Below are positions 4,868-31,148 of a stretch of 37,950 nucleotides of DNA, piece by piece. Numbering within the stretch: position 1 is the first letter of the stretch; each line of letters begins with the position of its first letter. The stretch comes from Microcoleus sp. AS-A8 (GTDB lineage Bacteria; Cyanobacteriota; Cyanobacteriia; Cyanobacteriales; Coleofasciculaceae): the NCBI GenBank assembly GCA_039962225.1, contig JAMPKV010000042.1:1-37950 (forward strand), written 5' to 3'. A program made the position numbers and the translations under genes. The notes under the pieces were generated by a model that was given only the letters and a program-made list of their open reading frames with translations, searched no databases and was not told the DNA's origin.

Positions 4868-5635
4868 TCAACAGCTTTCAGCTTCTAGATTGTCTGTAAG
4901 ATTCTTCATCATTTTGTTGCAATAGCGTATTGCCTCAAATAAGCCCGCCGTAGACCACCCAAGCTGAAGTTGATGCCGTTCGGTTTGTTTTTCGACCCAA
5001 TGGTCTTCGAGGCAGACTCTAAACCATCCTTCTGGTTTGTTAACTCTTTCACGATGGTTCAAAAAGTAGCTGATTGCCTGAAGGACTTCATAAAAGGAAA
5101 AGTTACGCAAAAAGTTAGCGTCTTTGGGTAAGTAGTAAATGCCGGCTTTTTGACAAGCTTCTAATTTTTGTTCAAATTCCTGTTCTTGGGCATTTTCTTG
5201 GGCGTCTTCTAAATCTAAATCTAGAAATGTTGTTGTTGTTATAGGCTCGGTTTTTACTGACTCAGGGTTTGAGGGGTCTAAATCGGGAATTGGTGGCTGA
5301 AATATTGCTCTTTTCTGCGGACGGCGAAAAGGGGGGGGGACGAGTACGCGAATGGGTTGCAGTGTCCACTTCCAGAGGTATGGGGTGTAGCCTTTGGCGT
5401 TGGTGAGGACTCCTTTGTCTCTAAGCTGAGAAGCGGCACGTTTGATGGTTTTGGGGTCGTGGGGAAAACCGCGTGTTCTTTTAACCCATTTGTTGAAGTC
5501 GCGCAGGTCGATGATTTCGCTGTTGCCTTCGGGTATTTCATCGAGGAGCCATTGCCAGAGTTCTCTGGCGGTGGGGGTGAGTCGGTTCTGTACGCTGAAT
5601 TTGTTGTGTTTTCTTGTCCAGTTGAAAGAATTCAT
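4868..5635 (-). CDS. Winged-helix-like protein, copy 1 of a duplicated gene
   Basis: The 255-aa product is a close paralog of the one at 29749-30498. Residues about 1-95 (MNSFNWTRKHNKFSV..., then LRDFNKWVKRTRGFPHD and YTPYLWKWTL) look like a helix-turn-helix or winged-helix domain of the kind found in replication- or plasmid-associated proteins. A proline-rich linker (VPPPFRRPQKR) follows, then a TTTT/LDLDLED acidic stretch and a C-terminal helical domain (about 165-255) containing KAGIYYLPKDA and EGWFRVCLEDHWVEK. The linker is encoded by a run of nine C's (5331-5339), a potential slippage site. The last 15 or so residues differ completely from copy 2, marking the edge of the duplication. DNA binding is inferred from fold-like patterns only. 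Confidence 0.85.
   Translation of the reverse strand: MNSFNWTRKHNKFSVQNRLTPTARELWQWLLDEIPEGNSEIIDLRDFNKWVKRTRGFPHDPKTIKRAASQLRDKGVLTNAKGYTPYLWKWTLQPIRVLVPPPFRRPQKRAIFQPPIPDLDPSNPESVKTEPITTTTFLDLDLEDAQENAQEQEFEQKLEACQKAGIYYLPKDANFLRNFSFYEVLQAISYFLNHRERVNKPEGWFRVCLEDHWVEKQTERHQLQLGWSTAGLFEAIRYCNKMMKNLTDNLEAESC
5331..5339 (-). repeat. Nine-C homopolymer in coding sequence, copy 1
   Basis: Nine consecutive C's on the coding strand encode part of Val-Pro-Pro-Pro-Phe in the linker of the winged-helix-like protein. The same nine-base tract is kept in the paralog at 30194-30202. Tracts of this length are prone to polymerase slippage. Confidence 0.9.
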
Positions 5636-5814
5636 TTGAGGTCGGGATAGGTGGAAAATCTTGTTCCTGGCTATGGTCAGTCAGCAAGGAGAGCGCGTGA
5701 AAACCTAACCCCCCATTGACCCCCCTAACCCCCCTTGGGTTCGGGGGGAACAAGAGGGAGCCGGACTCCCTTCAAGAGTGTCGGGGAGGGGTCTTTTTCG
5801 GGGAAAGCGCCCCA

Positions 5815-5850
5815 TGCCAAAGCTTCCTACCGGGAGGCAGGGTTATTGCA
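5815..5850 (-). other. Conserved leader block between small ORF and winged-helix-like gene, copy 1
   Basis: About 36 bases (CATGCCAAAGCTTCCTAC... to GGGTTATTGCA on the plus strand) recur at 30801-30836 with only two mismatches, although the surrounding sequence differs. On the minus strand TGCC/GGCA and TCC/GGA can pair to form a small hairpin. It lies in the 5' leader of the downstream gene and may be a structured regulatory element. Confidence 0.5.
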
Positions 5851-5876
5851 TTGGTGGATTAATTAAGGATTTGCGG

Positions 5877-6020
5877 TCAGGGAATCTCGCCCGTCTGAAT
5901 CTGTGTTGTGTCGGGGAGGGCGGTTGTTGCCTGGAGGAGTTGTTCTAGGTGGATTTTCGGTAAGATCCAATCGGCTGGAAGGCTTACGGAATGGTGGTTG
6001 TGTCGATTTTTTGACACCAT
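5877..6020 (-). CDS. Small ORF upstream of the winged-helix-like gene, copy 1
   Basis: A 47-codon frame begins ATG (6018-6020) with AAAGGAG seven bases upstream, a near-ideal ribosome-binding site. The peptide starts MVSKN and contains SVSLPADWI, shared with copy 2 (30859-30993); the tail (PKIHLEQLLQATTAL...) is helical-looking and differs from copy 2, where a net 14-base length difference shifts the frame. A four-codon frame, ATG AAA GGA GCC TAA, overlaps the Shine-Dalgarno and stops two bases before this ATG in both copies. It may be a real small protein, a leader peptide, or a chance frame in a conserved RNA leader. I do not recognise a family. Confidence 0.5.
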   Translation of the reverse strand: MVSKNRHNHHSVSLPADWILPKIHLEQLLQATTALPDTTQIQTGEIP

Positions 6021-6069
6021 AATTAGGCTCCTTTCATGACTGTTACATGGGAGGGGTAGTCGTCCTGAG

Positions 6070-6088
6070 TAGGTGCGCTCAACACCTA
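6070..6088 (-). other. Hairpin with conserved stem and variable loop, copy 1
   Basis: TAGGTG (6070-6075) pairs with CACCTA (6083-6088) around a 7-base loop, CGCTCAA. The stem and about 50 flanking bases on each side are nearly identical in copy 2 (31043-31061), but the loop there is TTGGTAG. This suggests a structure maintained by selection, or a protein-binding palindrome, upstream of the small ORF. Confidence 0.6.
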
Positions 6089-6308
6089 TCCGGGGCGCGT
6101 TATTTCTTTGTTGGGTTGATTTTACCGCAGTTGGGGGGAAATGGGGGAATGGGGTGCGATCGGGTTTTGGGGGGAAACCGTAAATTTACTGAAATATCAC
6201 AAAATCTATTTTCTGGGGTAGAGAAAAAATCAGTGAAATCCACATGTTTTTTCAAGCTCCAAAAGCTTTTAATAAAGCTGTAATCCCAATGGAAACAGCT
6301 AAAACATC

Positions 6309-7122: not shown

Positions 7123-7128
7123 TCTGAA

Positions 7129-7355: not shown

Positions 7356-8429
7356 CTAAGACAGCTCAATCTGGCTATCGTCACCAATCATGAACCGCAA
7401 AGCTTTAGGGCGTCTGGGGGCAATCTTCAAATGCGCCCGTTGTCCCAGCACACTGTCCACAATCCGCTGGTGAATGCCCTCCACCTTGGCTCCCTGCAAA
7501 ATCACGCTATGCTCAAGGTCAGCCTCAATCAGGGTCACGTTGTCAGCGATGCTGCTGTAGGGTCCAACAAAGCTGTTTTCCAGGTTGCAGTCGTTCCCAA
7601 TCGTCACGGGGCCGCGAATCGTACAATTTTTCACCGTCGATCCTTTGCCTATCTGCACACGTCCAATCACCTGACTTTGCTCGTCAACGTCACCCTGGAT
7701 GTTTGAGTTGAGACAGGTATCCAGAATAATCCGGTTGGCTTCTAACAAGTCGTCTTTCTTCCCGGTATCCAGCCACCAGCCTTTGAGTTGATAGGCTTCT
7801 ACCTTGGAAGAATCGTCAATCAGGTATTGAATCGCATCGGTAATTTCCAGTTCACCTCTGGGAGAGGGTTGAATATTGGCGATCGCGTGGTGGATTGTGG
7901 GAGAAAACATGTAAATTCCCACCAGCGCCAGATTCGAGGGAGGGTCTTTAGGTTTTTCGATAAGCTGCAACACTCGCCCCTCTTCATCCACCTTCGCCAC
8001 ACCAAAAGCACTGGGATTACTCACAGGGCAGAGTAGGGTTAAGGCATCTAGGCTTTTGGTGTTAAACTTCTCCAAGAATAGGCTGAGTTCGCTTTGAACC
8101 AGGTTATCCCCCAGGTACATGACAAAGGGGGAATCGCCTAGGAAAGGCTGGGCGATTTTAACGGCGTGAGCCAATCCTGCGGGTTGGTCTTGAAGAATGT
8201 AGGTAATCTTGGCTCCAAATCGCTCTCCATCGCCGGTTTTGGCTTTGACCTCGCCGCCGGTTTCTGGACTGATGATAATCCCGATATCGGTGATTCCGGC
8301 TTCAACAATGGCTTCAATCCCATACCACAAAATGGGTTTATTTGCAACAGGAACCAGTTGCTTTGCCCCAGTATAGGTAAGGGGTCGCAAGCGCGTGCCT
8401 TTACCGCCCGAAAGAATAATTGCTTTCAT
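7356..8429 (-). CDS. rfbA: Glucose-1-phosphate thymidylyltransferase (RmlA, long form)
   Basis: RmlA couples dTTP and glucose-1-phosphate to dTDP-glucose, the first step towards dTDP-rhamnose. The N-terminus has the nucleotidyltransferase signature SGGKGTRLRPLT (residues 7-18) with the catalytic Lys in GAKQLVPV, and MYLGDN for metal binding. At 357 aa it is the long form with an extra C-terminal left-handed beta-helix (about 250-357, hexapeptide-like), as in the RmlA-long family common in cyanobacteria and actinobacteria. The start codon overlaps the rmlD stop by four bases (ATGA), so translation is coupled; it is the last gene of rmlC-rmlD-rmlA. A different sugar nucleotidyltransferase is unlikely given the linked rml genes. 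Confidence 0.95.
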   Translation of the reverse strand: MKAIILSGGKGTRLRPLTYTGAKQLVPVANKPILWYGIEAIVEAGITDIGIIISPETGGEVKAKTGDGERFGAKITYILQDQPAGLAHAVKIAQPFLGDSPFVMYLGDNLVQSELSLFLEKFNTKSLDALTLLCPVSNPSAFGVAKVDEEGRVLQLIEKPKDPPSNLALVGIYMFSPTIHHAIANIQPSPRGELEITDAIQYLIDDSSKVEAYQLKGWWLDTGKKDDLLEANRIILDTCLNSNIQGDVDEQSQVIGRVQIGKGSTVKNCTIRGPVTIGNDCNLENSFVGPYSSIADNVTLIEADLEHSVILQGAKVEGIHQRIVDSVLGQRAHLKIAPRRPKALRFMIGDDSQIELS

Positions 8430-9328
8430 GAGTGATAGGAATAAAGTTCTAGAAGCATTTGTCTAAGTGCCTGTCGCCAATGGGGAGGATGGCTTCCCAA
8501 AACGGCTGAAATCTTTTTCCCAGACAGCACCGAATAAGCCGGACGCTGAGCTGGTGTGGGATAGTCCGCCGTTGCGATCGGCACGATTCGCTGCACTTTT
8601 AACGGGAAGCCTAGGGGTTTGGCTTCCTCACAGATGGCAACAGCGAAGTCGTACCAACTGGCAACACCACTATTGGTATAGTGGTACGTCCCCGTTGGGA
8701 AATTAGGCTGTGCTGGATCTTGGCTTGATTGGGACACCAGTGTGGCGATCGCTTGAGCCAGATCAGCCGCCCAAGTGGGGGAACCCACCTGATCGGCGAC
8801 GACACGAACCTCTTCGCGTTCTGCGAAAAGCCTCAGCATTGTTTTAACAAAGTTAACCTTGCCAAGGCTGCCATAGACCCAAGCGGTTCTCAGAATCAGG
8901 TGGTTTGTGCAGGTTTGGCGAATCCCTTCCTCCCCTTCGAGCTTGGTTCGTCCATAGACACCAAGGGGGTTGGTGACATCGTCCTCGGTGTAGGGTGTAT
9001 TTTTCCCACCATCGAAGACATAATCGGTCGAAACGTGAATTAGGGTAGCTCCTAGCTGCTGAGCTTCAAGAGCCATGACTGTAGGTGCCGTAGCATTGAT
9101 GGCTTGAGCCAGTTCCGTTTCCGTCTCTGCTTTGTCAACTGCCGTGTAGGCGGCGGCATTAACAATCACGTCAGGTTTGATTTCAACTAGACGCTGACGA
9201 ATGGTGGTCTCTTGAGACAAATCCACCGTCGAGCGATCGACCCCAATTACCTCCCCCAAGGGAGCTAGGGTTCGTTGCAGTTCTTGACCGAGTTGGCCTG
9301 TGCAACCCGTGAGTAAGATTCGCCTCAT
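8426..9328 (-). CDS. rfbD: dTDP-4-dehydrorhamnose reductase (RmlD)
   Basis: RmlD reduces dTDP-4-keto-L-rhamnose to dTDP-L-rhamnose with NAD(P)H. The 300-aa product has the Rossmann motif GCTGQLGQEL (residues 8-17), STDYVFDG (100-107) and the catalytic YxxxK pair Y125/K129 in YGRTKLEGE, all standard for the family. It overlaps rmlC by four bases at its start and rmlA by four bases at its end, giving a tight operon. It is full length. Confidence 0.95.
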   Translation of the reverse strand: MRRILLTGCTGQLGQELQRTLAPLGEVIGVDRSTVDLSQETTIRQRLVEIKPDVIVNAAAYTAVDKAETETELAQAINATAPTVMALEAQQLGATLIHVSTDYVFDGGKNTPYTEDDVTNPLGVYGRTKLEGEEGIRQTCTNHLILRTAWVYGSLGKVNFVKTMLRLFAEREEVRVVADQVGSPTWAADLAQAIATLVSQSSQDPAQPNFPTGTYHYTNSGVASWYDFAVAICEEAKPLGFPLKVQRIVPIATADYPTPAQRPAYSVLSGKKISAVLGSHPPHWRQALRQMLLELYSYHS

Positions 9329-9870
9329 GGGAACATCTCTGCCTCCTTAAAGGACTTACCGGCTTGGTCTTTAGCGGATACGATGGGGGTTTCTTCAAGG
9401 GGCCACGCGATCGCTAAATCGGGGTCATTCCAGATGACGCATCGTTCATACTGAGGAGCATAGTAATCGGTTGTTTTGTACAAGACTTCAGCAAATTCCG
9501 AAACAACACAAAAGCCGTGGGCAAATCCCACAGGCACCCATAGCTGTTGCTTGTTCTCGGCGCTGATTAGCGTCCCAACCCATTGACCATAGGTTGGAGA
9601 GCTTTTTCTCAGATCCACGACCACATCAAATATCGCTCCGGCGACTACACGCACTAATTTCCCTTGGGGTTGTTGAATTTGGTAGTGTAAGCCACGTAGG
9701 ACATTTTGAGTGGAACGGGAATGATTGTCTTGGACAAACGGAGCGTCTACTCCTGTTTTTTCGCAGAAGGCTTTTGAGTTGTAACTTTCTAAGAAGAAAC
9801 CACGCTGGTCTTCAAAGACTCGCGGTTCGATAATCAGAACGTCTGGAATCTTAGTCGGGATAATATTCAT
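9325..9870 (-). CDS. rfbC: dTDP-4-dehydrorhamnose 3,5-epimerase (RmlC)
   Basis: RmlC epimerises dTDP-4-keto-6-deoxyglucose at C3 and C5. The 181-aa cupin shows the family hallmarks: FxDxRGFF near residue 22, RGLHYQ with the catalytic His at about 62, VPVGFAHGF (112-120) and the Tyr-rich TTDYYAPQ. It is the first gene of the rmlC-rmlD-rmlA operon. RmlB (dTDP-glucose 4,6-dehydratase), which makes its substrate, is not in the window and must be supplied from elsewhere. Confidence 0.95.
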   Translation of the reverse strand: MNIIPTKIPDVLIIEPRVFEDQRGFFLESYNSKAFCEKTGVDAPFVQDNHSRSTQNVLRGLHYQIQQPQGKLVRVVAGAIFDVVVDLRKSSPTYGQWVGTLISAENKQQLWVPVGFAHGFCVVSEFAEVLYKTTDYYAPQYERCVIWNDPDLAIAWPLEETPIVSAKDQAGKSFKEAEMFP

Positions 9871-10428
9871 TAAGCACTCTCATTTCCCAGTACGCCAACC
9901 GGAATTTTTAACGCTTCGGGTTAGCGCGTCACGTCATTATATTCGATCAATTTGCACTTGCCTGCTGCCGAATAGTTCGACAATTGGGCGGGTAGATGTT
10001 ATTAACCTAGAGGAATGCAAACTCACTGAGGAGATCAAACTCTATCTTAGCAACCCAGAAAGTGCTGGCAAGTGTCAGCTGAAGGCTCATGCTAAATCTT
10101 TGGTTTGGCGATGAGATGAATGCTGACCCCAAAACAAATTGCGTAGCATTCTTTGATAGAGTGAGTTGGGGTAAAGTACCTCCAGTAAGCGACGTGAAAA
10201 GATTCAGGGTGAAAAATGTCAGCGCTCTAGAACCGAAATTCTGGAGAATTGGTGGTAGCGAGAACACCTACATTCGTAGCTCAGTAGCCGATAATAACGA
10301 TGAAGGAAGACAACACAAGATTCGGTAAAGTTGTCTGTATTGTAGAAACTAATTTGTAAGAGAATAGCTGAGTTTACTGTTCCCAAAATCCTGAATTTTA
10401 GCTTGTTGTTAATTTGGAAATATTGGTT
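9871..10428. other. Intergenic region between divergent EPS operons
   Basis: About 560 bp separate the rmlC start (minus strand) from the GT4 start (plus strand), so promoters for both are expected here. I see no convincing gene; overlapping frames at 10007-10267 and 10089-10328 lie on opposite strands and lack supported starts or family-like sequence. No clear operator was found. Confidence 0.5.
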
Positions 10429-11559
10429 ATGTTAAAACTGCTTTCTTTGTTCCCAATTTACTGCACAAATAGAGCTGTCAGTCATGCAGTTTTTTCCTTG
10501 TGCAAGTACTGGCAAGGACCAAATGTTCAAGCACGAATGGTTGTTCCCAATTGCGAACCACACTGCCGTGGTTCTAATCTTGTTGAAAGCGTTCCACGAT
10601 TGCTCAAATGGTTTTATTATCGAAGTTGTGAGGCTCCCATAGCGATGGCAGAAAAGCGTTTCCTAAGAGAGCTCAAGGATTTTGATGCCGCCCACATTTG
10701 GCCTGGTACTACATTAGATGTCTTTCAGAAAACAAAAAAGATTGGCAAACCCATTTTTCTGGAGCGTATTAACACTTATGTTGGGAATTCTAAACGGATT
10801 CTTGATGAGGCTTACGCTCGGTTGGGAATCCCTCCTAACCACGGGATTACTCCAGAAAAAATTCAGGCAGAGCAAGCTGAATTAGAGTTAGCTGATTTCA
10901 TTTGGGGTTGCAGTCCAGAAGTTATCAAATCGTTTCAGGAAGCCGGAGTTCCAGACGAGAAAATTATCCCAACCAGTTATGGGTGGTGTCCCACTCGGTT
11001 TCCGACGATTCATGCTGAAAAACCCCCAACAGATGAGTTTACAGTTCTTTTCTTGGGCACTGTTGGTGTCCGAAAAGGAGTTCACTTGCTTTTGCGGGCT
11101 TGGGAGCGAGCAAATATTAAAAAGGGACGACTGATTATTTTTGGTCAAATTGAACCTGCGATCGCCGAAACGTGTCGTGATCTTCTGGCACGTCCTGATG
11201 TAATTCGCCGTGAATTTAGTATCAATTATGCCTCTGCCTATCGCGAAGCCGACTTGTTTGCCTTTCCGAGTCTGGAGGAAGGCAGTCCGCTTGTAACCTA
11301 TGAAGCGATGGCACATGGCTTACCCATGCTCATGTCACCGATGGGAGCAGGTGGTGTTGTCCGAGATGGGATTGATGGCATGGTTCTTCCCCCTTATGAG
11401 GAGGACGCCTGGGTAGAAGCCTTGCGTAAGTTCGCCAATAACCCAGACTTATGCAAAAAGTTTGGGGAGTCGGGGCGTCAGTGGGTTCAGGAGTTTACCT
11501 GGGAAAAGGTGGCAGCTAGACGTGCGGCGTCGATGCAAGAACTGCTCAAAGCCGCTTAA
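10429..11559 (+). CDS. Glycosyltransferase, family GT4-like
   Basis: The product (376 aa) is a GT-B fold retaining glycosyltransferase. The C-terminal Rossmann domain shows LFLGTVGVRKGVHLLLRAW (about 205-225) and the donor-binding EX7E motif in LEEGSPLVTYEAMAHGLP (about 280-300). No membrane segment is visible; it is expected to act on the cytosolic face on a lipid-linked glycan. I chose ATG at 10429 over a TTG at 10414; neither has a strong ribosome-binding site. It is the only plus-strand gene among the transferases and converges with the next acyltransferase gene, with just 7 bases between the stop codons. Sugar specificity cannot be read from sequence. Confidence 0.9.
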   Translation: MLKLLSLFPIYCTNRAVSHAVFSLCKYWQGPNVQARMVVPNCEPHCRGSNLVESVPRLLKWFYYRSCEAPIAMAEKRFLRELKDFDAAHIWPGTTLDVFQKTKKIGKPIFLERINTYVGNSKRILDEAYARLGIPPNHGITPEKIQAEQAELELADFIWGCSPEVIKSFQEAGVPDEKIIPTSYGWCPTRFPTIHAEKPPTDEFTVLFLGTVGVRKGVHLLLRAWERANIKKGRLIIFGQIEPAIAETCRDLLARPDVIRREFSINYASAYREADLFAFPSLEEGSPLVTYEAMAHGLPMLMSPMGAGGVVRDGIDGMVLPPYEEDAWVEALRKFANNPDLCKKFGESGRQWVQEFTWEKVAARRAASMQELLKAA

Positions 11560-11566
11560 AAACTCC

Positions 11567-12073
11567 TCAGTTGATAATTTTGGCAGGTATCCCAACCGCT
11601 GTAGCTCCCTCCGGTACATCATGGAGTACCACCGCATTCGCCCCAATTTTGGCATGGTTACCGATAGTCACAGGACGAATAATTTTCGCCCCTGCACCGA
11701 TATCGACATGACCACCAATTTTTACCCCAGCAACAACGGTTACTTGTTGCAAAATCAAACAATTGGGACCAATAGTGGCATCGGGGTGAATCACAACCCC
11801 AATGGGATGGGTTAGGAGCAGTCCTCCTTCAATCTGGCAGTTTATGGGAATATCCGAGCCAGCAATAACGCTCCAGAATCGATGTTGGAGAACGTTCCAC
11901 CTACAGAAAAAACCACCGAGTATTCCACCGCGTTTTTGCCACTTTTGATACTCGCGAATTGATTTGAGTAGCTGGCGGCTGGGGTCCCACCCGCGGCTAC
12001 AGGCTTCGCGGCTCCAATCAGGCTCTGTGGCAGAAATCGCAGGAGCTGTTGGTGATTCAAGCGATTCAATCAT
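11567..12073 (-). CDS. Hexapeptide-repeat (serine acetyltransferase-like) acyltransferase
   Basis: The 168-aa product has the left-handed beta-helix pattern of CysE-like acetyltransferases from about residue 75 on: IxxGLLLTHPIGVVIHPDATIGPNC..., with a catalytic-type His in THPIGVVIH, ending in GIPAKIIN. It lacks the N-terminal helical domain of true CysE, so it more likely acetylates a sugar of the EPS than serine. Its start overlaps the end of the preceding similar gene by 8 bases, and the two plus the GT2 gene upstream form an operon. Confidence 0.85.
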   Translation of the reverse strand: MIESLESPTAPAISATEPDWSREACSRGWDPSRQLLKSIREYQKWQKRGGILGGFFCRWNVLQHRFWSVIAGSDIPINCQIEGGLLLTHPIGVVIHPDATIGPNCLILQQVTVVAGVKIGGHVDIGAGAKIIRPVTIGNHAKIGANAVVLHDVPEGATAVGIPAKIIN

Positions 12074-12647
12074 GGTCTTGGGATTTTTGGGATCTGAGAA
12101 TTTTCGCGGGGATGCCTACGGCTGTTTTTCCTGGAGGAATGTCTGATAGCACCACGGCATTGGCTCCGATGTTCACGTCATCGCCAATGGTGATATTGCC
12201 AAAAAGTTTGGCTCCAGCCCCCACGTTGACACGCTTACCCAATTTGGGGGCATCGAACGGACGATCCAGGTAACGATTTCCCATCGTCACTCCTTGGCGG
12301 ATAATACAATCGTCGCCGATGACACAATCCCCATGAATCACAATACAACTCTGGTGTTCGATGACCACGCGGCGACCGAGCTGAGCACTATAAGGCAATT
12401 CAATCCCATAGCTGTTGCGGATTTTGCGAAATAATGAACGGTAGAGGATGCTAAGGGGTGCCCTTATGAATATCGGTTTAATTTTCATTCTCCAGACGCC
12501 GAAGCGATAAACGGCTACGGCTCGAAATCCCGGCTTAGTCCAATCCTTTCCATGAGCAATCCAGTCTTCTTTGAGCTGTTGCCACAAACCAAGCTCTGTG
12601 GTTTCCTCTTCCTTCACACTGGATGTAATCTCTGGTTGTGCGACCAT
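12066..12647 (-). CDS. Hexapeptide-repeat acyltransferase (serine acetyltransferase-like)
   Basis: The 193-aa protein has an N-terminal helical part (about 20-75) with the WxxHGKDWTKPGFRAVAVYRFGVW pattern seen in polysaccharide-linked CysE-like proteins. A left-handed beta-helix follows (about 88-185), containing VVIEHQSCIVIHGD, RQGVTMGN and GIPAKIL. It is probably a cytosolic acetyl-CoA-dependent sugar O-acetyltransferase. GAGGT five bases before the ATG supports the start. It lies 41 bases after the GT2 gene and overlaps the next acyltransferase by 8 bases. The two acyltransferases are different enough to have separate acceptors. Confidence 0.87.
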   Translation of the reverse strand: MVAQPEITSSVKEEETTELGLWQQLKEDWIAHGKDWTKPGFRAVAVYRFGVWRMKIKPIFIRAPLSILYRSLFRKIRNSYGIELPYSAQLGRRVVIEHQSCIVIHGDCVIGDDCIIRQGVTMGNRYLDRPFDAPKLGKRVNVGAGAKLFGNITIGDDVNIGANAVVLSDIPPGKTAVGIPAKILRSQKSQDHD

Positions 12648-12688
12648 AATTTACCTCGGCGGCGTCGTATATTTTCTTTCAGGAGGAT

Positions 12689-24317: not shown

Positions 24318-24374
24318 GATTACTGGAGCCAGAGAAGAATTCGGAGGTGTGGGGAGTCAGGCGACGTAACAGCA

Positions 24375-25646
24375 TCAGTTGATCCTTGCCGTAGGGATGA
24401 AGGCTTTCACAAGAGGAGGCGGTGCAGCGCTGGCCTGAGTCTTCTCAATGTTAGAGGGGAACAGCGCCGCGAGTCGCGTCGCTTCGAGTAAGGCATCATG
24501 CTGCTTGGCAACACGCTCTGCCCCCGCTCTGCCCATCTGATCCAGCTTTTCTACGGGTAACTGCAAAGCTTTACCCATGGCGGCGGTTAAGGCTTCAACT
24601 GATCCAGGCGGCACCAACCACCCGCAGGTTTCAGGCTCCACTAACTCCGGTATTCCGGCGACATAGGTGCTGATTACGGGACGTGACAGGGCTAGTGCTT
24701 CCATAATGACTACGGGCAGCCCCTCGGCAAAGCTGGGGAGTACCATAGCTCGTGAGGCTAAAATCTGTTGCTGCACATCATTAGAACTTGCCCACCCCGT
24801 AATCTCGATGTGGTCAATAAGTCCATATTGTGCAATCAAGGCTTCAATCTGGGGTCTAAGGGGGCCATCGCCAACGAATACCAGCTTAAACGGCAAGCCA
24901 AGGGCGGCTAACCGACTCGCGGCTTCAATTAAAAGCAAATGACCTTTTTGTTCGCTCAAACGACCAATGCAGACTAGTCGAGGTTGATCGGGTATAGGGA
25001 TATGGGGCTGCTTCAAAAACAGCTCGTCCACGCCACAATGAACGACATGGATTTTTGACCACTGATCTTGGGAACACCACCGATAAAGCTGACTTCTGCC
25101 GAAGGAGCTGACGGCTACAACAAAGGCGGCTCGATTGATTTTTTCGGTTAAGGCGATCGCTTGAACTTTATCAAACTCTTCAGGACCATGAACAGTGAAA
25201 CTGTAAGGGGGTCCGCCAAGAGCACGACACAACATCGCGACAGTGGTTGAATTTGTCCCGAAGTGAGCGTGAACGTGAGCTATCCCCAAGTCCGAAAACC
25301 GACGTAAAAGAACACAGGCTTCAGCCAAGTAGGCGAAATGACGCAAAATACCTCGCTCTGAATGCCAGCCAACAAGGAGCATTAGCCATAAAGCACTCCA
25401 AAAACGAGCGGGTCTGGTTATCGCAACGCGAATTAGGGCAAAAAGAAGACCGAATTTGCCAGTTTCTAAGACAACCTGAGTCAATTCTTGCTCTAGTTTG
25501 TCTTCTTCATCAACGAGTTCGGAGCTACACGAGCGGATTGAAAAACGTGCAACTTGAAGACCCATCGCCTCGACTCCAGCAATTTCTCGTCGGATGAAGC
25601 TATGGCTAACCTTGGGATACTGATTAACTAGATAGGCAATTGTCAT
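24375..25646 (-). CDS. Glycosyltransferase, family GT4 (colanic acid WcaL-like)
   Basis: The 423-aa product starts at ATG 25644-25646 (MTIAYLVNQYPKVSHSFIRREI). The frame extends 107 codons further upstream, but that part looks non-coding. YPKVSHSFIRREI is the N-terminal signature of the WcaL-like GT4 subgroup of colanic-acid-type loci. HVHAHFGTNSTTVAML, CIGRLSEQKGHLLLIEA and the EX7E motif in EGLPVVIMEALALSRPVI complete the GT-B pattern. It is probably the first gene of a run with the flippase and acyltransferase downstream. Sugar specificity is unknown. Confidence 0.92.
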   Translation of the reverse strand: MTIAYLVNQYPKVSHSFIRREIAGVEAMGLQVARFSIRSCSSELVDEEDKLEQELTQVVLETGKFGLLFALIRVAITRPARFWSALWLMLLVGWHSERGILRHFAYLAEACVLLRRFSDLGIAHVHAHFGTNSTTVAMLCRALGGPPYSFTVHGPEEFDKVQAIALTEKINRAAFVVAVSSFGRSQLYRWCSQDQWSKIHVVHCGVDELFLKQPHIPIPDQPRLVCIGRLSEQKGHLLLIEAASRLAALGLPFKLVFVGDGPLRPQIEALIAQYGLIDHIEITGWASSNDVQQQILASRAMVLPSFAEGLPVVIMEALALSRPVISTYVAGIPELVEPETCGWLVPPGSVEALTAAMGKALQLPVEKLDQMGRAGAERVAKQHDALLEATRLAALFPSNIEKTQASAAPPPLVKAFIPTARIN

Positions 25647-26503
25647 CGTGAACTCGCTCGAAAAGAGTATTTTTTGTTTAATCTTTGTAGAGCCGTTAAA
25701 AAATAAAACTTTTTGTAAACGACCGTGACGACTCTTCCTAGACTGCTGCTTCCAGTTGGGGGCCACTCTTCGTGGAAAGTACCCGACGAGCACGAAGAGG
25801 AAGTGTCTTCCCGTACTGTGGGCAGTGGATAGGAGAAAAATCACCCTGTCTGCTACTATCTCCTTCTTTCTCCCAGATGTCGCCTCCCCATTCCCTCCCC
25901 TGGGCGTTATGTGTGTACAACACTCCTTCTCTTCCGAGGGGAAGGAACGCTGTGTTCTCTCTCTCATTGACTACCCCCTGCTTCTCTATCCCAGTACGGG
26001 GAGAGGAGAACTCGCCCGACTCTTTCTCTCAGTAGGCAAAAGCGAAAAGCTGCATCCCCATCATAGCCACGCGCTCGGCTTTTGCATCGAGACAAGAGGC
26101 CGTTGACGCCACTCTTCACGACTGCAACAGGGGCGATTTTTTGATGGGTATCGGGACTCTTCGAGAGCCAATGCGGTCTCAATAAAACTCTTGTTTTGTC
26201 GGCCAAGAACTGCTCCATCTGAAGTGAAGAGGTAGCTAGATAGCCACAGATTCTTTTTCTTTCCTGTCGCGTCGTTGGTTGCTTTCTGTCAGCAAGGTGA
26301 TCCGAAGACAAAAACTAGAAGGCAATTCTTGCTAGTCAATTTTTCCGTCATACAAGGATTTTATCCTTCATGAATCTTCTCTTCATGAAGAGAAATGACG
26401 CTTCTCACAGTACTCCCCGTTCTATTAGAGTGTTGTCCTCCTTCACCAGATAACACGCGCTCGTGGCACGAAACCGGAAATTTTAGCAACAGGATATTTT
26501 ATG
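25647..26503. other. Long non-coding region within the EPS locus, 857 bp
   Basis: No convincing gene is present; a 115-codon minus-strand frame at 25964-26311 has an atypical composition rich in Arg, Lys and Ser. The stretch contains a 9-bp inverted repeat CTCTTCGTG/CACGAAGAG (25766-25774 with 25791-25799). It also contains two copies of the palindrome TTCATGAA (26368-26375 and 26382-26389), 14 bases apart. Because it lies before the GT4 gene, it probably carries that operon's promoter and leader. Confidence 0.55.
26367..26390. promoter_or_regulatory. Paired TTCATGAA palindromes, possible operator
   Basis: Two CTTCATGAA-type palindromes occur with a 14-15-base period between the RHH gene and the GT4 operon. 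Spaced palindromes of this sort often bind dimeric regulators. Their proximity to the RHH gene makes it a candidate ligand, but no direct evidence links them. Confidence 0.35.
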
Positions 26504-26704
26504 TCAGTTGATGGGGTAACCCAGAACACGCGGCGGCTCTAATGATTCTCCATCAACTGACCCATACTGAACTTTCGGAAGACGTTTGATATAGTCCTTG
26601 ATCACTTCAGACATAGAGACACCTCGCCTGTCTGCCTCTTTCTGCAATCTGGCTTTCTCATTATCGTTCAGGCGAACCCGAAGCATATATTCTCGCCTTG
26701 CCAT
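26504..26704 (-). CDS. Ribbon-helix-helix regulator (CopG-like), 66 aa
   Basis: The small basic protein has the RHH pattern: a short strand YMLRVRLND (residues 6-14), helix one NEKARLQKEADRRG, then a second helix SMSEVIKDYIKRLPK. Such proteins dimerise and bind DNA through the N-terminal strands, usually as antitoxins or autoregulators. No toxin gene is adjacent. It lies between the two divergent parts of the EPS locus, and the tandem motif ATGTTGC at its own start suggests autoregulation. A role in EPS control is plausible but inferred. Its C-terminal end (IKRLPK) resembles that of the RHH domain in the protein at 33167-33868. Confidence 0.82.
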   Translation of the reverse strand: MARREYMLRVRLNDNEKARLQKEADRRGVSMSEVIKDYIKRLPKVQYGSVDGESLEPPRVLGYPIN

Positions 26705-26721
26705 GTTGCGACTAATGTTGC
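26703..26721 (-). promoter_or_regulatory. Tandem ATGTTGC motif at the RHH start
   Basis: ATGTTGC occurs at 26703-26709 and 26715-26721, a 12-bp period of about one helical turn. The first copy overlaps the RHH start codon. RHH repressors often bind such short tandem sites, so this could be an autoregulatory operator. Confidence 0.4.
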
Positions 26722-27315
26722 TACACTATTGAGATGAAGATAGCACATCAGTACAGACTCCGACCAACAAAAGAGCAAGCCTATTGATTTCTCTTCACAC
26801 AATCGCTCCGTAGCTCCGGAACGTCGGGGAAGAAAGGAGCTTATAGGGACGTACTGTGATACGCCCGAGACAGGAAATCTTCGCTATCGCAGCAGCAGGA
26901 GTTAAGCTTGTTGGTCACGTTATACCAATGACGCTTGTGGAAAGCGACTTCTTTGTATGTCACCTTTTCCATTTTTAAATAAATTTCCTATTATCCCAGT
27001 TGAGCGGTCAGAATGGGGAATATAAGTAATATAGATTGGGCGGGTAAAAGAGCAGATCTTGTAAAAACATGCGATATGACAAAGGATGAATGAATTTAAG
27101 TTTGTATGCCTTGTGGCATCCCGTCAATCCAGCTCATAGAGTTTTCTTGCTATCGCAAGGAACGCGAGAAGTGAGAAGCCCTCGTCGTAACTAATCGGAG
27201 CAGGAAGAAAGTAGATCATAAAGTTTGTTACCAGAGGAGCATCAAGCTTTAGAGACTTCTACAACGCGAGGGCTTTTCTGGGGGTGCAAGTCAACAAACT
27301 ATCATAGAGGTCAAA
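26722..27315. other. Divergent regulatory region between RHH and Wzc-like genes
   Basis: About 600 bp without a gene. A weak promoter-like pair, TTGAGC (27000-27005) and TATAAG (27021-27026), lies about 300 bases before the Wzc-like start; the 15-base spacing is suboptimal. A CTTGC/GCAAG hairpin at 27146-27159 lies in the presumed leader. Confidence 0.4.
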
Positions 27316-29679
27316 ATGGAAACAGAACCGGTCTCTCAAGTTTTATCAATTAGCAAGCGAGGCAGACAGTTGCAGGAATTGCCAGCCCTCGACAATTCGG
27401 AGGTCAGCACTCCGCCTCAAAAAGGAATGAACTTTCGTCCACTCTTGAGGACTGTCCAACGGAAAGCCCTACTGGTGATTGGCATCACGGCTGCGGTGGG
27501 AGGTGGTGCCTTTGTTTGGGCTAATCAAAACATCCCTACGAGCTACAAAGGTGATTTTCAGCTTTTAGTCGAGCCTGTAACCAATGAGGGTAAATTCGTT
27601 CAACCCTCTGTACTCACTCGCGAGGGTGGACAAGGGATGGGTCAAGGAATTACTAACCTGGACTACGCCACTCAGCTCGAAATTTTAAGAAGTCCAAGGA
27701 TATTATCTGCCATATATGAGCAAGTTAAAAGCCGATATCCTAAGCTGAATTATTTTGCCTTCTCAAAAGGATTAGCCGTTGAACGCCTCGCTAGCGAAAC
27801 CTCTCCGGAACCAACCAAGATTCTCAAAGTTAGCTACGAAGCGGAAGATCAAAAACAAGTTGAGTTTGTTTTGGATGTCGCCGCGAAAAAATATTTACAG
27901 TACAGCCTTCAGGAACGGAAGACTCGAATTAGTGAAGGGGTTAAGTTTATTGATGACCAACTCCCGGAGTTGAATGCGCGGGTAGAGTCTCTTCAGTCGC
28001 AAATCCAACGGCTGCAACAGCAGAACAAGTTGACCGACCCAAAAACGCAGGGCGATCAATTATTCACGCAAGTTCGTGAAATCAACAATCAACTAGCACA
28101 AACCCAAAGAGATTTAGCTGAGCAAAAGACGCTTTATGTTAGCTTACAGCAACAATTAGATCTAACACCATCGGAAGCGATCGCCGCCTCAGCGTTAAGC
28201 GAAGACCCTAACTATAGAACCCTGCAAGCAAAGATTCAGGAACTCGACAATAAGATTGCCGAAGAAAGAGGTCGTTTTCAGGATGATAACCCCGTTATCC
28301 AATCTCTACTAGCTAAACGACAAAACCTACTCAACTTACAGGGCAACGAATCCAATCGGATTGTAGGGGAGAACACAGGCGAGGCAACAGGCAATCCGAA
28401 AGTGGAAGCTTTCCAAAATTCGGTTCGGATAGGACTGATTCAGAAACTGGTTGAATCCACCAACCAAATTGAGCTTCTGGAGGTTCGCAATCAGGCGCTC
28501 ACACAAACGAAAAAGGCGATGGAGCGACAAGCCCAGATATTTCCTTCTATTGCACGGGAATATAACGCGATACAGGGGCAGTTGGAGATTGCTAACCGGA
28601 CACGCGAACAACTCTTGACTCAGCGAGAAACCCTGCGAGTCGAGGCGGCTCAAAAGCAAGTCCCATGGGAACTAGTTTCCAAGCCTAAGCTAATGACCGA
28701 TCCTAGCGGTAACGCAATATCCAGCAGTAAAGCTAAACCCATTAAGATCGGGGGAGTCTTGGTCGGTCTGCTTTTAGGTGTGGGAACGGCTGTAGGAATA
28801 GAAAGAATCCGCAATATCTTCTACAACGACAAGGAACTGGAAGATAGTATCCCCTTGCCGATGTTAGGGATAATTCCGGTCTATAAAGGTTCTAAAAAAG
28901 CACAGCCTGCCTTCGTCGGATCTGCCGAAGGAACGGGGGGCAGCTATCAGAACGATCCGGAATTTCAGAAAGCCTTCGACTCTCTCTACGCCAGCATCCG
29001 TTTTCTGTTTTCCGATCCCCCTGTCCGTTCTTTAGCGGTTTGCTCAGCAGGGCCTGAAGATGGTAAGTCTACAGTGGCTTTAAATCTGGCTCAAACGGCA
29101 GCCAGCATGGGGCAGCGAGTCCTGTTGGTGGATGCCAATCTGCGTCAACCTCAGATCCACGAACGCTTGGGCATACCAAACCAGAAGGGACTGTGCGACC
29201 TCCTGACCAAAAAACTCGCGCCTAACGAATTCATCCAGAAATCGGCTGTAGATAATCTCTTTGTGCTGACTACGGGTCAACTCCAACCCAACTCGACCAA
29301 ACTGCTGGGGTCGGCTCAGATGCAGTATCTCATGGAGGAATTCCAAGCTACCTTTGACCTGGTTGTTTATGACACAGCCCAGTTTGGCAGCTTTATGGAT
29401 ACTAATTTCCTGGCGGCTCATACTGATGGGATTTTGATGGTTGTTGCCGTTGGCAAGACGAAGCGTACTTTAGTGATGCGAGTCATGGATCAACTCAACA
29501 CGTATCGCTTACCCACTTTGGGTGTCGTGGCAAATCATGTCAAGCGGAATACCCACATTCCTTACGAAACTGGAACAGCGCCTGAGTGGAATTCTGGTGT
29601 TGAGGAACTACCCGCTCATCAGACCGCAGGAAAATGGCTAGGATACAATCCGGACAACTTCAATGAAACGATGTCCTAG
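27316..29679 (+). CDS. Wzc-like polysaccharide co-polymerase with BY-kinase domain
   Basis: The 787-aa protein combines a Wzz-type chain-length domain with a bacterial tyrosine-kinase-like ATPase domain. Transmembrane segments lie at about 51-68 and 477-495, enclosing a large periplasmic region with coiled-coil heptads (about 200-345 and 375-445). The cytosolic part has Walker A (SAGPEDGKST, 577-586), Walker A' (LLVDANLRQP, D606) and a Walker B-like VVYDTAQ (D686). The C-terminus has few tyrosines (Y750, Y777) instead of the usual Tyr cluster, so autophosphorylation may be limited or different. AGAGG six bases before the ATG supports the start. It is on the plus strand, opposite most EPS genes. 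It should control polymerisation and export of the polymer. Confidence 0.93.
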   Translation: METEPVSQVLSISKRGRQLQELPALDNSEVSTPPQKGMNFRPLLRTVQRKALLVIGITAAVGGGAFVWANQNIPTSYKGDFQLLVEPVTNEGKFVQPSVLTREGGQGMGQGITNLDYATQLEILRSPRILSAIYEQVKSRYPKLNYFAFSKGLAVERLASETSPEPTKILKVSYEAEDQKQVEFVLDVAAKKYLQYSLQERKTRISEGVKFIDDQLPELNARVESLQSQIQRLQQQNKLTDPKTQGDQLFTQVREINNQLAQTQRDLAEQKTLYVSLQQQLDLTPSEAIAASALSEDPNYRTLQAKIQELDNKIAEERGRFQDDNPVIQSLLAKRQNLLNLQGNESNRIVGENTGEATGNPKVEAFQNSVRIGLIQKLVESTNQIELLEVRNQALTQTKKAMERQAQIFPSIAREYNAIQGQLEIANRTREQLLTQRETLRVEAAQKQVPWELVSKPKLMTDPSGNAISSSKAKPIKIGGVLVGLLLGVGTAVGIERIRNIFYNDKELEDSIPLPMLGIIPVYKGSKKAQPAFVGSAEGTGGSYQNDPEFQKAFDSLYASIRFLFSDPPVRSLAVCSAGPEDGKSTVALNLAQTAASMGQRVLLVDANLRQPQIHERLGIPNQKGLCDLLTKKLAPNEFIQKSAVDNLFVLTTGQLQPNSTKLLGSAQMQYLMEEFQATFDLVVYDTAQFGSFMDTNFLAAHTDGILMVVAVGKTKRTLVMRVMDQLNTYRLPTLGVVANHVKRNTHIPYETGTAPEWNSGVEELPAHQTAGKWLGYNPDNFNETMS

Positions 29680-29748
29680 TAGCCTCATGGAACATTTCCG
29701 TTGGGTTAAAAGTGCTGTTGTGGTTGGTCGAAATGAAGATTCCCTATT

Positions 29749-30498
29749 TCACGCCCAGGCATTGGGGTGGTCATTCCGCCCCAATAATTCACTGCAATAG
29801 CGTATGGCCTCAAACAAGCCCCCTGTAGACCATCCAAACAGGAGTTGATGTCGTTCCTTTTCTTTTTCGACCCAATTGTCTTCCAGGCAGACTCGAAACC
29901 ATCCTTCTGGCTTGCGAACTCCATCGCGGTTATTCAAGAAGTAGTTGATCGCTTCGAGGACTTCTTGGAACGAAAAGTTATGCAGGAATTGGGCGTCTTT
30001 GGGTAAGTAGTAAATGCCGGCTTTTTGACAAGCTTCTAATTTTTGTGAAAATTCCTCTTCTTGAACGTCTTCTAAATCTAAATCTAGAAATGTTGTTGTT
30101 GTTATAGGCTCGGTTTTTACTGACTCAGGGTTTGAGGGGTCTAAATTGGGAATTGGTGGCTGCAATATTGTTCTTTTCTGCGGACGACGAAAAGGGGGGG
30201 GGACGAGTACGCGAATGGGTTCTAGCGTCCACTTCCAGACGTAGGGAGTGTAGCTTTTGGCGTTGGTGAGCACGCCTTTTTCCCTCAGTTGAGCCGCTGC
30301 GCTTTTGACGGTTTTGCGGTCGTGGGGAAAGCCGCGTGTGCGTTTGACCCATTTGTTGAAGTCGCGCAGGTCGATGGTTTCATGATTGCCTTCGGGTATC
30401 TCATCCAAGAGCCATTGCCAGAGTTCTCTGGCGGTGGGGGTGAGTCGATTTTGTACGCTGAATTTGTTGTGTTTTCTTGTCCAGTTGAAAGAATTCAT
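29749..30498 (-). CDS. Winged-helix-like protein, copy 2 of a duplicated gene
   Basis: The 249-aa paralog of the 4868-5635 product shares its N-terminal helix-turn-helix-like region, VPPPFRRPQKR linker, TTTTFLDLDLED stretch and C-terminal KAGIYYLPKDA/EGWFRVCLEDNWVEK domain. Differences are a few substitutions, a six-residue deletion in the acidic stretch and an unrelated last 13 residues (LLGRNDHPNAWA end). Stretches of over 100 bases are nearly identical at DNA level, which points to recent duplication or gene conversion. The nine-C tract is kept at 30194-30202. Upstream on the same strand are the small ORF and an HTH gene (31149-31610), which may form an operon with it. Function is unknown. 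Confidence 0.85.
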   Translation of the reverse strand: MNSFNWTRKHNKFSVQNRLTPTARELWQWLLDEIPEGNHETIDLRDFNKWVKRTRGFPHDRKTVKSAAAQLREKGVLTNAKSYTPYVWKWTLEPIRVLVPPPFRRPQKRTILQPPIPNLDPSNPESVKTEPITTTTFLDLDLEDVQEEEFSQKLEACQKAGIYYLPKDAQFLHNFSFQEVLEAINYFLNNRDGVRKPEGWFRVCLEDNWVEKEKERHQLLFGWSTGGLFEAIRYCSELLGRNDHPNAWA

Positions 30499-30858
30499 TT
30501 GAGGTGGGGATGGGTAGATTGTTCTGTTCCCCCGATGAATTGGGGGGCTACGGTCTTGTCCCCCCCTTTTTTAAGGGGGGCTAGGGGGGATCTGCGTGTC
30601 TGTCCTCTTGTCAGTCGGTAAAAGGTTTAATTGATTGGCTTTTTTAAGGGAGTTGGTGTGGCGGACAAAAGGTGTTCGATCCCCCTAAATCTCCTCACCT
30701 TCGGCTCCGGCTTAAAAAGGGGGACTTTCAGGAGTTCAATTCCCCCCCCTTGTTAAGGATGAGAGGGAGGGGGAGGGGTCACATCCACGTCACGCGCCCA
30801 TGCCAAAGTTTCCTACTGGGAGGCAGGGTTATTGCAGAGATGGATAAATTGAGCTGTT

Positions 30859-30993
30859 TTACTCGGTGAATCTCGCTGGGAAAGAGTCCGTGTTGTGTCG
30901 GGGTGGACTTGTTTTATTCGGTAGATTTTTGGGTTTGATCCAATCGGCTGGAAGGCTTACGAAATAGGTAGTTGGGTGATTTTTTGACACCAT
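30859..30993 (-). CDS. Small ORF upstream of the winged-helix-like gene, copy 2
   Basis: A 44-codon frame starts ATG (30991-30993) with AAAGGAG seven bases upstream, identical to copy 1. It shares MVSKN and the core VSLPADWI with copy 1, after which length changes put the tail in a different frame (NKTSPPRHNTDSF...). The conserved N-terminal half and start region favour translation, while the unrelated tails argue that the C-terminal half is not under the same constraint in both copies. I do not recognise a family. Confidence 0.45.
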   Translation of the reverse strand: MVSKNHPTTYFVSLPADWIKPKNLPNKTSPPRHNTDSFPARFTE

Positions 30994-31042
30994 AATTAGG
31001 CTCCTTTCATGGTTTGTACATGGGAGGGGTAGTCGTCCTGAG

Positions 31043-31061
31043 TAGGTGTTGGTAGCACCTA
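31043..31061 (-). other. Hairpin with conserved stem and variable loop, copy 2
   Basis: TAGGTG (31043-31048) and CACCTA (31056-31061) enclose the 7-base loop TTGGTAG. Stem and flanks match copy 1 (6070-6088); only the loop differs. It lies between the HTH gene and the small ORF. Confidence 0.6.
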
Positions 31062-31148
31062 TCCGGGGCGCGTTATTTCTTTGTTGGGTTGATTTTACAT
31101 CAAGTGGGGGGGAATGTGCGATCGGGTTTTTGGGGGGAGTGACGAGTC

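Follow-up and report, generated by a model that had tools for sequence, protein, structure and literature searches.

Two old copies of a module with a covarying leader RNA flank the EPS locus of a plasmid in Microcoleus sp. AS-A8

Introduction

The ssr7036/asRNA1/slr7037 locus of the Synechocystis plasmid pSYSA is a replication-control locus, according to an excerpt of the published account (PMC9978351). In the REx-C replication-control modules of Pseudomonas plasmids, a stem-loop leader is combined with a leader-peptide ORF, and the excerpted text presents these modules as exchangeable (PMC5304414). For REx-C and for the RNAI of IncK, changes in the loops alter compatibility (PMC5304414, PMC10724649; both in excerpt).

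Here we describe a module with a leader RNA and a short ORF that stands on each side of an EPS locus in a 37,950-nucleotide stretch of Microcoleus sp. AS-A8 (contig JAMPKV010000042.1), referred to below as the window (Table 1). The explanation we favour, at even odds, is that the module serves as a control cassette of the plasmid. Its doubling would go back to an old fusion or duplication, leaving a stable relic and not a device for excising the EPS genes.

Table 1. Features of the window and of the two module copies
Feature	Position	Strand	Basis
5S rRNA (5′ cut), end of plasmid-borne rRNA operon	1..99	+	
Left copy, winged-helix-like P0001, 255 aa	4868..5635	−	
Linker tract, near-identical between copies (104/107)	5195..5310, counterpart about 30058–30173	−	
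Left short ORF, 47 aa, MVSKN...VSLPADWI; truncated counterpart of a 100-aa ORF in Symplocastrum	5877..6020	−	
Left two-hairpin leader RNA	6018..6101	−	covariation, model search
Left TAAAAT, promoter −10-like box, 17 nt before leader	6119..6124	−	
EPS locus: dTDP-sugar genes, glycosyltransferases, flippase, tyrosine autokinase	7356..29679	.	
Right copy, winged-helix-like P0002, 249 aa	29749..30498	−	
Right short ORF, 44 aa, departs from left ORF after about 20 residues	30859..30993	−	
Right two-hairpin leader RNA	30991..31074	−	
Right TAAAAT, promoter −10-like box	31092..31097	−	
HTH protein, 153 aa, just upstream of right module only	31149..31610	−	
ORF in place of annotated tyrosine recombinase MIC7113_RS31355 of pMIC7113.02	34487..35407	−	position
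psbA start; contig breaks here and C37 resumes inside psbA	37581..37950	+	

The window is part of a pMIC7113.02-type plasmid

pMIC7113.02 (NC_019760.1), a plasmid of Allocoleopsis franciscana PCC 7113, is collinear with the window. A second contig of the same genome, C37, supplies most of the remaining plasmid of this type; its beginning falls within psbA and its end beyond a complete 16S rRNA, and the window opens at 5S and breaks off in psbA. C37 also encodes the plasmid's large DUF3987 protein (93% identity over residues 1–1034 and 74% over residues 1107–1473). Because the window is collinear with a closed circular plasmid and most of the remainder is present in the genome, we assign it to a pMIC7113.02-type plasmid, which in AS-A8 would be a putative circle of ~92 kb.

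The two plasmids agree in type, in the position of the EPS locus and in carrying both module copies, the rRNA operon, psbA and the recombinase. They differ in the middle of the EPS locus, where pMIC7113.02 has other DNA; in the right winged-helix-like gene, which is split into two ORFs in pMIC7113.02; and in the stretch 31116–33144 of the window, which has no match there, PCC 7113 being without the neighbouring HTH gene. EPS genes, an rRNA operon and psbA would thus stand together on one replicon of ~92 kb. None of the papers listed by literature searches described the plasmid's rRNA operon, though an account may well exist in print.

The EPS locus had been called complete. EPS genes do lie between the module copies, namely a tyrosine autokinase above cut-off (TIGR01007), a polysaccharide flippase (Pfam) and, scoring under the NCBIfam cut-off, an EpsE-like glycosyltransferase; the genes annotated on the orthologous plasmid support them as well. 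Completeness was not borne out: among the EPS ORFs scanned, 16778–18598 and 18917–20305 matched nothing in Pfam or NCBIfam, 21557–22735 matched nothing in NCBIfam, and 15346–16578 gave glycosyltransferase matches only, below cut-off.

Extent and identity of the repeat pair

The two copies, about 4868–6163 and 29749–31126, have the same orientation and lie on both sides of the EPS locus. Direct repeats and a BLAST search of the left copy against its own genome confirmed this arrangement as given in the preliminary description, whose coordinates were correct to ~50 bp, the protein genes extending slightly past the left ends. The direct repeats are 4918–5198/29793–30073 (83%), 5195–5494/30058–30357 (90%), 5811–5890/30797–30876 (80%) and 5954–6153/30927–31126 (84%), with offsets of 24.86–24.99 kb. 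With 4868–6240 as query, BLAST returned the right copy in two pieces, 29793–30518 (87%, E 2e-260) and 30762–31138 (78%, E 6.5e-82); elsewhere in the 7.75 Mb genome it matched only over 46 and 37 bases. More than 100 bases are indeed almost identical: the linker block agrees at 104/107 positions, and the exact runs are 80 (the longest), 54 and 54 bases.

No transposase was seen in the module, in agreement with the preliminary description. Inverted repeats at the module ends reach 7 and 6 bp, against a control mean of 6.7 and maximum of 10; direct matches at the edges are 5 and 6 bp, figures that stand without a control. With no transposase and no inverted ends above control, a transposon or insertion sequence was rejected.

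A covarying leader RNA precedes the short ORF

Reading in the direction of transcription, each module consists of a −10-like box, an 84-nt two-hairpin leader RNA, a short ORF and the winged-helix-like gene; the small ORF and leader hairpin reported earlier are therefore both present. The second hairpin pairs the Shine–Dalgarno sequence of the short ORF. In 31 model-fitted leaders, 17/20 pairs have double changes and 91.8% of cells are paired, against 26–48% in slid versions; the helix that holds the Shine–Dalgarno pairing (helix 2, columns 101–103) is likewise paired in 91.8% of cells. An 11-sequence MAFFT alignment that was not fitted to the model gave the same structure. Of 500 shuffles in the A1 count, 18 attained the number of doubly changed pairs and 36 that of pair types. 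The leader is thus a structured RNA with covarying helices in front of ORFs, and a cis-regulatory role is predicted for it.

A −10-like box lies 12–32 nt before 17/31 leaders, compared with a mean of 3.9 and a maximum of 12 in 500 shuffles, the interval having been picked after the sequences had been seen. A scan for two-hexamer promoters found none on either strand at the left or right leader, and hence no antisense promoter of this kind; it also missed any sense promoter, and −10-only promoters could escape such a scan.

Searches of Rfam 15 gave no leader match, neither at the gathering score in the window nor by E-value with the Symplocastrum leader and 15 leader loci. The leader nevertheless recurs in other cyanobacteria. 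A model search matched it in 21/147 genomes, or 19/147 without the weak matches in G104 and G109. True leaders can reach 25.1 bits when read on the reverse strand, and weak matches were therefore not trusted (G104, 24.2 bits; G109, 24.5; G450, 24.6; a second place in G078, 25.8, reverse strand). By nucleotide search the leader was found among plasmids in pMIC7113.02 only and among phages not at all. In viral contigs a DNA pattern picked out six loci: the model recognises L195 as a leader (E 2.5e-11), gives marginal values for two (0.0096 and 0.014) and does not match the other three at E 1. The 601-bp upstream piece was matched in 23/57 genomes, though many of these matches trace to a dispersed repeat, rich in G/C, within the spacer (query about 485–522). 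No account of the leader was found among the papers listed by literature searches, and that does not prove its absence from print.

We examined 19 leader neighbourhoods. A Pfam-confirmed integrase is close by in four (L068, L130, L131 and L140) and a primase/helicase domain in three (L129, L131 and L135), so that 6/19 have one or the other; the remaining 13/19 are without a confirmed mobile-element gene among the part of their genes that was scanned. This strongly covarying RNA, unmatched in Rfam 15, thus stands several times near integrase or primase genes. Some leaders (L064, L066) lie among chromosomal-looking genes.

These contexts would suit a translational switch (a riboswitch, a thermometer or an autogenous protein-binding site) that serves small genes, many carried by mobile elements, and is unconnected with replication control. 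We give this explanation a little under an even chance. The leader precedes diverse small ORFs, some near integrases and several with an SH3-like pattern by eye; the Shine–Dalgarno sequence is paired in the second hairpin; and the stretch GACGACTTC is conserved. Against it, the leader stays with the same winged-helix-like gene in both plasmids and in Symplocastrum, and it survives in the plasmids despite a truncated short ORF.

The winged-helix-like protein and its relatives

P0001 and P0002 are read as winged-helix-like proteins. P0001 has an N-terminal part, a Pro/Thr/Asp-rich linker and a C-terminal part with a PEGWFRVCLED motif. It gave no significant match in Pfam, PHROGs, NCBIfam, PADLOC or PDB sequences (best E in the last, 0.61), and neither copy significantly matched a family of replication initiation O-like proteins. 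Among plasmids, the protein search with P0001 matched pMIC7113.02 only; the relative in G012 matched pMIC7113.02 and, weakly, an Acaryochloris plasmid, and for the 100-aa Symplocastrum ORF there was a match in pMIC7113.02 and a weak one in a Nostoc plasmid. With alignment A6, viral contigs yielded no relative.

The G012 relative adjoins a ParB_N gene, and a ParA-like ORF was seen by eye near a relative in G245. IS110-like and small tyrosine recombinase families occur in 9/18 stretches with P0001-family relatives, the Pfam check being confined to L171 members (IS110, 30.2 bits against a cut-off of 29). This company of partition, recombinase and other mobile-element genes was counted in favour of a control cassette.

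No leader was found at 24 search loci and three longer stretches with protein relatives, nor in eight neighbourhoods that partly overlap these. In G109 (where the leader match is weak), G113 and G201, leader and protein relative are on different contigs. Leader and winged-helix-like protein are therefore separable. This separability, the chromosomal-looking contexts, the 13 neighbourhoods without a confirmed mobile-element gene, the absence of significant matches for P0001 and the lack of a two-hexamer antisense promoter were counted against a control cassette.

The HTH protein upstream of the right copy matches replication-initiation O-like proteins in PHROGs (best E 2.8e-8) and, weakly, Csa3 in PADLOC (E 1.5e-4). 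It is 48% identical over 86 aa to a gene in the same place in Symplocastrum, whose product also matches the replication-initiation O-like family. The resemblance was counted for a control cassette.

The copies predate the split between AS-A8 and PCC 7113

PCC 7113 carries the same module pair around its EPS locus, and the pair must therefore be older than the split between the two strains. Over five alignment blocks, 135 sites group the copies by side, left and right apart, whereas 1 groups the two copies of a genome and 6 are crosswise; one more within-genome site lies outside these blocks in poorly aligned DNA. Between copies dS is 0.424 and dN 0.100, compared with a dS of 0.18 between left orthologues. 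The copies had been held to be either recent or kept alike by gene conversion. The site pattern and dS reject a recent duplication, and 1 supporting site against 135 rejects continuing conversion. What may stand is an older conversion of at most the ~115-bp linker and perhaps part of the N-half, not of the rest of the module: between copies the linker has a dS of 0.04, the N-half 0.40 and the C-half 0.74. Constraint on the linker is also conceivable, since the left orthologues too show unusually little divergence there (dS 0.035, about one change).

A rival account is a plain segmental duplication in one plasmid, without fusion and without any function in having two copies, the right one now decaying in PCC 7113. 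Compared with the 100-aa Symplocastrum ORF, both short ORFs are truncated, and the DNA that follows is common to both, which suggests a single truncated ancestor for the two copies. The split right gene of PCC 7113 and its missing HTH neighbour point the same way. Duplication alone, however, leaves the near-identical linker between much more diverged halves unexplained, and dN well below dS suggests that both copies were kept for long. We consider this account rather unlikely, at somewhat better than one chance in four.

The left and right leaders differ at 10/81 positions, all in apical loops. Loop 1 changed at 5/7 sites in both orthologue pairs, with binomial probabilities of 0.002 (left) and 6e-5 (right) against neutral rates of 0.17 and 0.081 that were chosen by the analyst; both loops together give 0.074 (left) and 5e-5 (right). 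At a rate of 0.18 the right copy gives 0.003 for loop 1 and 0.006 for both loops. Faster than neutral change is suggestive only. If the leader served copy control, fixed stems with diversifying apical loops would let two copies share one plasmid without cross-talk. It is an improbable idea that the leader is a new RNA class for self-recognition or copy control in cyanobacterial plasmids and integrative elements, and that the EPS segment is a former independent replicon, fused and perhaps still releasable through the modules.

The preliminary description proposed that the copies could serve as direct repeats for excision or amplification of the EPS unit, here 24.9 kb, by homologous recombination. 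The orientation is suitable, exact runs of 80 and 54 bases suffice in principle for RecA-type recombination, and the circle would hold one module and the EPS genes. Neither excision nor amplification was seen, however: the arrangement is intact and free of deletion in both plasmid-bearing genomes (AS-A8 and PCC 7113) even though the copies predate their split, overall identity is only 78–87%, and homogenisation since the split is almost nil. A link between module and EPS locus was not borne out either, since leader and protein relatives occur in many other genomes. In addition, a 16.7-kb Symplocastrum stretch (L061) has one module, the right-hand flank genes and no EPS match. Excision by the modules is therefore doubtful, at roughly one chance in eight.

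Chance similarity or an assembly artefact can be dismissed, given an E of 2e-260 between the copies and the same pair in the separately sequenced circular plasmid pMIC7113.02.

Discussion

For a plasmid control cassette, the most likely mode of action is that the leader would restrain translation of the short ORF and the winged-helix-like protein would help to replicate, maintain or regulate the replicon. With 240–360 bp between the short ORF and the winged-helix-like gene, their direct translational coupling is improbable, and a replication role for the module is not needed because the large DUF3987 protein may be the plasmid's replication protein. Before AS-A8 and PCC 7113 split, the second copy may have arrived together with the EPS segment, or a duplication enclosing that segment may have produced it. 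Homologous recombination offers a plausible route: if two related plasmids or elements, each bearing its own diverged module, recombined in this way, two direct copies would remain, with a short identical tract at the crossover.

To our knowledge, little is known about plasmid control in filamentous cyanobacteria. Should the leader govern how the elements with integrase or primase genes near it are replicated or expressed, it would offer a handle on such control.

Other cyanobacterial stretches with a tyrosine recombinase and a DUF3854/VapE or P4-like primase (L129–L131, L135 and L140) carry relatives of the leader, in front of other small genes. The NCBIfam primase match of L135 falls just short of its cut-off (105.0 against 108.7 bits), and Pfam DUF5906 and Pox_D5 are above theirs.

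The pSYSA locus resembles the module in that both have a plasmid setting and a short ORF that, together with its leader, precedes a plasmid gene. As far as the excerpt goes, the downstream gene of the pSYSA locus encodes a 958-aa primase/helicase protein (CyRepA1) and an abundant antisense RNA has been shown there (PMC9978351). Homology to ssr7036 was rejected, the leader model having no match in a 5-kb pSYSA stretch at E 0.05. The REx-C and IncK systems, again as excerpted, share the stem-loop leader and leader-peptide ORF, and their compatibility loops recall the leaders described here, which differ between copies in the loops only. They control a rep gene, with an antisense RNA that is known for IncK and putative for REx-C. 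Set against the IncFII/IncI/REx-C type as a whole, the module has the stem-loops and the short ORF; the winged-helix-like gene lies 240–360 bp further on and could be equated with rep only tentatively.

Two direct copies of the module on a plasmid

The preliminary description had placed two direct copies of the module around the exopolysaccharide (EPS) locus, and their positions were confirmed by a repeat finder and by a search of the organism's own genome. Four matching blocks were found in the window, with identities of 80–90% and offsets of 24.86–24.99 kb. When the left copy was used as query against the 54 contigs of that genome (7.75 Mb in total), the right copy was recovered in two pieces (87% and 78% identity), the only other matches being of 46 and 37 bases.

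The window is a complete contig (C42, 37,950 bp) that starts with 5S rRNA and ends in psbA. It is collinear with the circular plasmid pMIC7113.02 (93,032 bp) of Allocoleopsis franciscana PCC 7113, which has a full rRNA operon (16S, 23S, 5S) at ∼58–63 kb. A second contig of the same genome, C37 (50,490 bp), starts inside psbA, ends beyond a complete 16S rRNA and is collinear, with gaps, with 6.4–59.7 kb of pMIC7113.02, including its large DUF3987 protein (93% identity for residues 1–1034, 74% for residues 1107–1473). The two contigs and the missing pieces (∼3.2 and 0.7 kb on pMIC7113.02) total ∼92 kb. Given the collinearity, the complementary ends and this sum, the window is, on sequence grounds, part of a pMIC7113.02-type plasmid, which is presumably circular in Microcoleus sp. 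AS-A8 also.

This plasmid type carries an rRNA operon plus psbA; here the 16S gene is on C37 and the 5S gene in the window. Plasmid-borne rRNA operons have been reported in other bacteria (PMC10645730). The plasmid's other contig has an Rfam match to NsiR1 (40.8 bits, cut-off 39). Two mid-EPS stretches are without a DNA match longer than 150 bp in pMIC7113.02, both flanks being 89–94% identical; apparently the glycosyltransferase core has been swapped. Immediately left of the EPS genes, a 25-bp perfect inverted repeat around 117 bp has a 27-bp imperfect one nested in it, and the left-module spacer contains a dispersed G/C-rich repeat with matches in many of the genomes searched.

Coordinates of the module copies and other features (L063, L188 and L190 are DNA stretches outside the window, L188 being on the plasmid's other contig)
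Feature	Sequence	Position	Strand
Left module copy	window	∼4868–6163	minus
Right module copy	window	∼29749–31126	minus
Module pair of PCC 7113	pMIC7113.02	∼70.2–71.5 kb; 0.06–1.4 kb	
rRNA operon/plasmid regions	window; L063; L190	1–99; 11110–16048; 8884–10373	
NsiR1 match	L188	11513–11573	
G/C-rich repeat	window	5719–5756	
Nested inverted repeats	window	7129–7295	
Mid-EPS stretches	window	10075–12010; 13724–18974	
Stretch unmatched in pMIC7113.02	window	31116–33144	
Stretch with a 98-aa gene	window	31911–32392	
Short matches to Symplocastrum	window	32535; 34113	

The copies predate the split from PCC 7113

The same module pair is found at the same places around the EPS genes of pMIC7113.02. In an alignment of the four copies (five blocks), 135 informative sites unite the two left copies and the two right copies, against 1 grouping the copies within a genome and 6 grouping them crosswise. 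The whole-gene dS between left and right in the window is 0.42, compared with 0.18 between the left genes of the two strains; for the Symplocastrum gene it is 0.76–0.99. Judged by site grouping and dS, the copies are older than the strain split; the recent origin that had been proposed as one option is not supported.

Gene conversion had also been suggested to keep the copies alike. Divergence is uneven along the gene (dS 0.40 in the N-terminal half, 0.04 in the linker, 0.74 in the C-terminal half), and the Pro/Thr/Asp-rich linker, identical at 104/107 between the copies yet different in Symplocastrum, would fit an old conversion or crossover tract; ongoing homogenization of the whole module is contradicted by the single site grouping copies within a genome. 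Constraint may instead explain the linker, because it is also conserved between the left orthologues (dS 0.035). The right winged-helix-like gene of PCC 7113 is broken up into two separate ORFs, and the window at and beyond the end of the right copy has a stretch without a DNA match in pMIC7113.02.

A 16.7-kb stretch of Symplocastrum torsivum (L061, contig JAHHIF010000043.1) has the gene order of the window: an HTH gene, the leader, a 100-aa ORF and a single winged-helix-like gene. It also matches the right-hand flank, in a stretch with a 98-aa gene (94% DNA identity) and in short matches beyond, and the EPS DNA of the window has no match in it (E 1e-5). One module and no EPS match in this stretch favour an older site at the right-hand flank, beside which the EPS segment and a second module would have been added. 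Matches neighbouring the stretch with the 98-aa gene are 74–81% identical; strong constraint and recent transfer are alternative explanations for its higher identity.

A structured leader RNA

An 84-nt leader lies 5′ of the short ORF in each copy. Eleven leaders were aligned with MAFFT, and folding with no structure prescribed gave two hairpins, with 96.8% of cells paired (slid versions, 23–43%). There are 12 doubly changed cells compared with 4.4 in shuffles (0/500 reach 12) and five doubly changed pairs (reached by 18/500); the second helix is invariant. A covariance model matched 36 places in 21/147 genomes, the own genome included, although two of the 21 have only hits of 24–25 bits, which reverse strands also score. 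In 31 model-fitted leaders, an alignment that favours the structure to which it was fitted, 91.8% of cells are paired (slid versions, 26–48%), 17/20 pairs show double changes and the covariation score is 0.465 versus 0.119 when shuffled. A second model, scoring 11 first-look candidates per genome, gave a rough lower bound of at least 12/386 genomes drawn across the phylum, the weakest hits (24.6 bits in G450, 27.1 in G023) being doubtful. In searches against Rfam 15 the leader had no match. A −10-like box is present 12–32 nt 5′ of 17/31 leaders, versus 3.9 in shuffles.

Between the two leaders of the window, 10/81 compared positions differ, all inside the 14 apical-loop positions (hypergeometric 5e-10). 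Other close pairs mostly show more loop than stem change and, in some, one of the two loops alone changes. A structured RNA would be expected to show such a bias; loop change beyond the neutral rate is only suggested.

Genes associated with the leader and the winged-helix-like protein

The ORF begins directly at the leader end in 27 of the 33 matches examined, some of these being as short as 10 and 20 aa; in the other six the longest ORF starts elsewhere. On visual inspection, several ORFs have an SH3-like pattern in common; for those searched against Pfam or PHROGs, no convincing family was obtained. A Pfam-confirmed tyrosine integrase is present in neighbourhoods L068, L130, L131 and L140, while L129, L131 and L135 encode a primase or helicase domain. 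With part of the remaining neighbourhoods' genes scanned, at least 6/19 have one or both, and L064 and L066 have chromosomal-looking surroundings; a link to mobile elements is therefore frequent at best and not universal. In seven stretches (L061, L122–L126, L133) the same kind of leader precedes a ∼150-aa family, with a ∼77-aa ORF (MPKPRYD in several) before the family in five; in G020 and in G449, a single contig has the family behind such a leader at two places.

For the left and right proteins (P0001 and P0002), no family reached the cut-off in family-library searches, and the winged-helix assignment is a putative reading of the sequence. A profile search found relatives in 57/291 genomes of the order (E ≤ 1e-6), many matching the N-terminal part alone. 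Three neighbour families are shared by 9/18 compared stretches: an IS110-like gene, a ∼192-aa tyrosine recombinase and a third family (Pfam was applied to the L171 members). In genome G012, a relative of P0001 adjoins a ParB_N gene. The island that surrounds relatives of P0001 in L038, L039, L171–L174, L176, L178 and L180, perhaps an integrative element, has the IS110-like gene and the recombinase in 9/9, a collagen-repeat family in 6/9 and, by eye, an XRE-looking regulator in 4/9.

A proposed doubled control cassette

The simplest account has a control cassette of the plasmid, in two copies since an old fusion or duplication that would have enclosed the EPS genes. Excision of the EPS unit between the copies may occur but finds no support in the two genomes. 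Because the second hairpin pairs the Shine-Dalgarno, it would be predicted to control the short ORF, and the neighbouring genes suggest a possible role of the module in replication or maintenance. By analogy, the module could resemble published replicons in which stem-loop control modules with leader peptides can be exchanged (PMC5304414) or in which loops set compatibility (PMC10724649), but membership would call for an antisense RNA and a rep gene.
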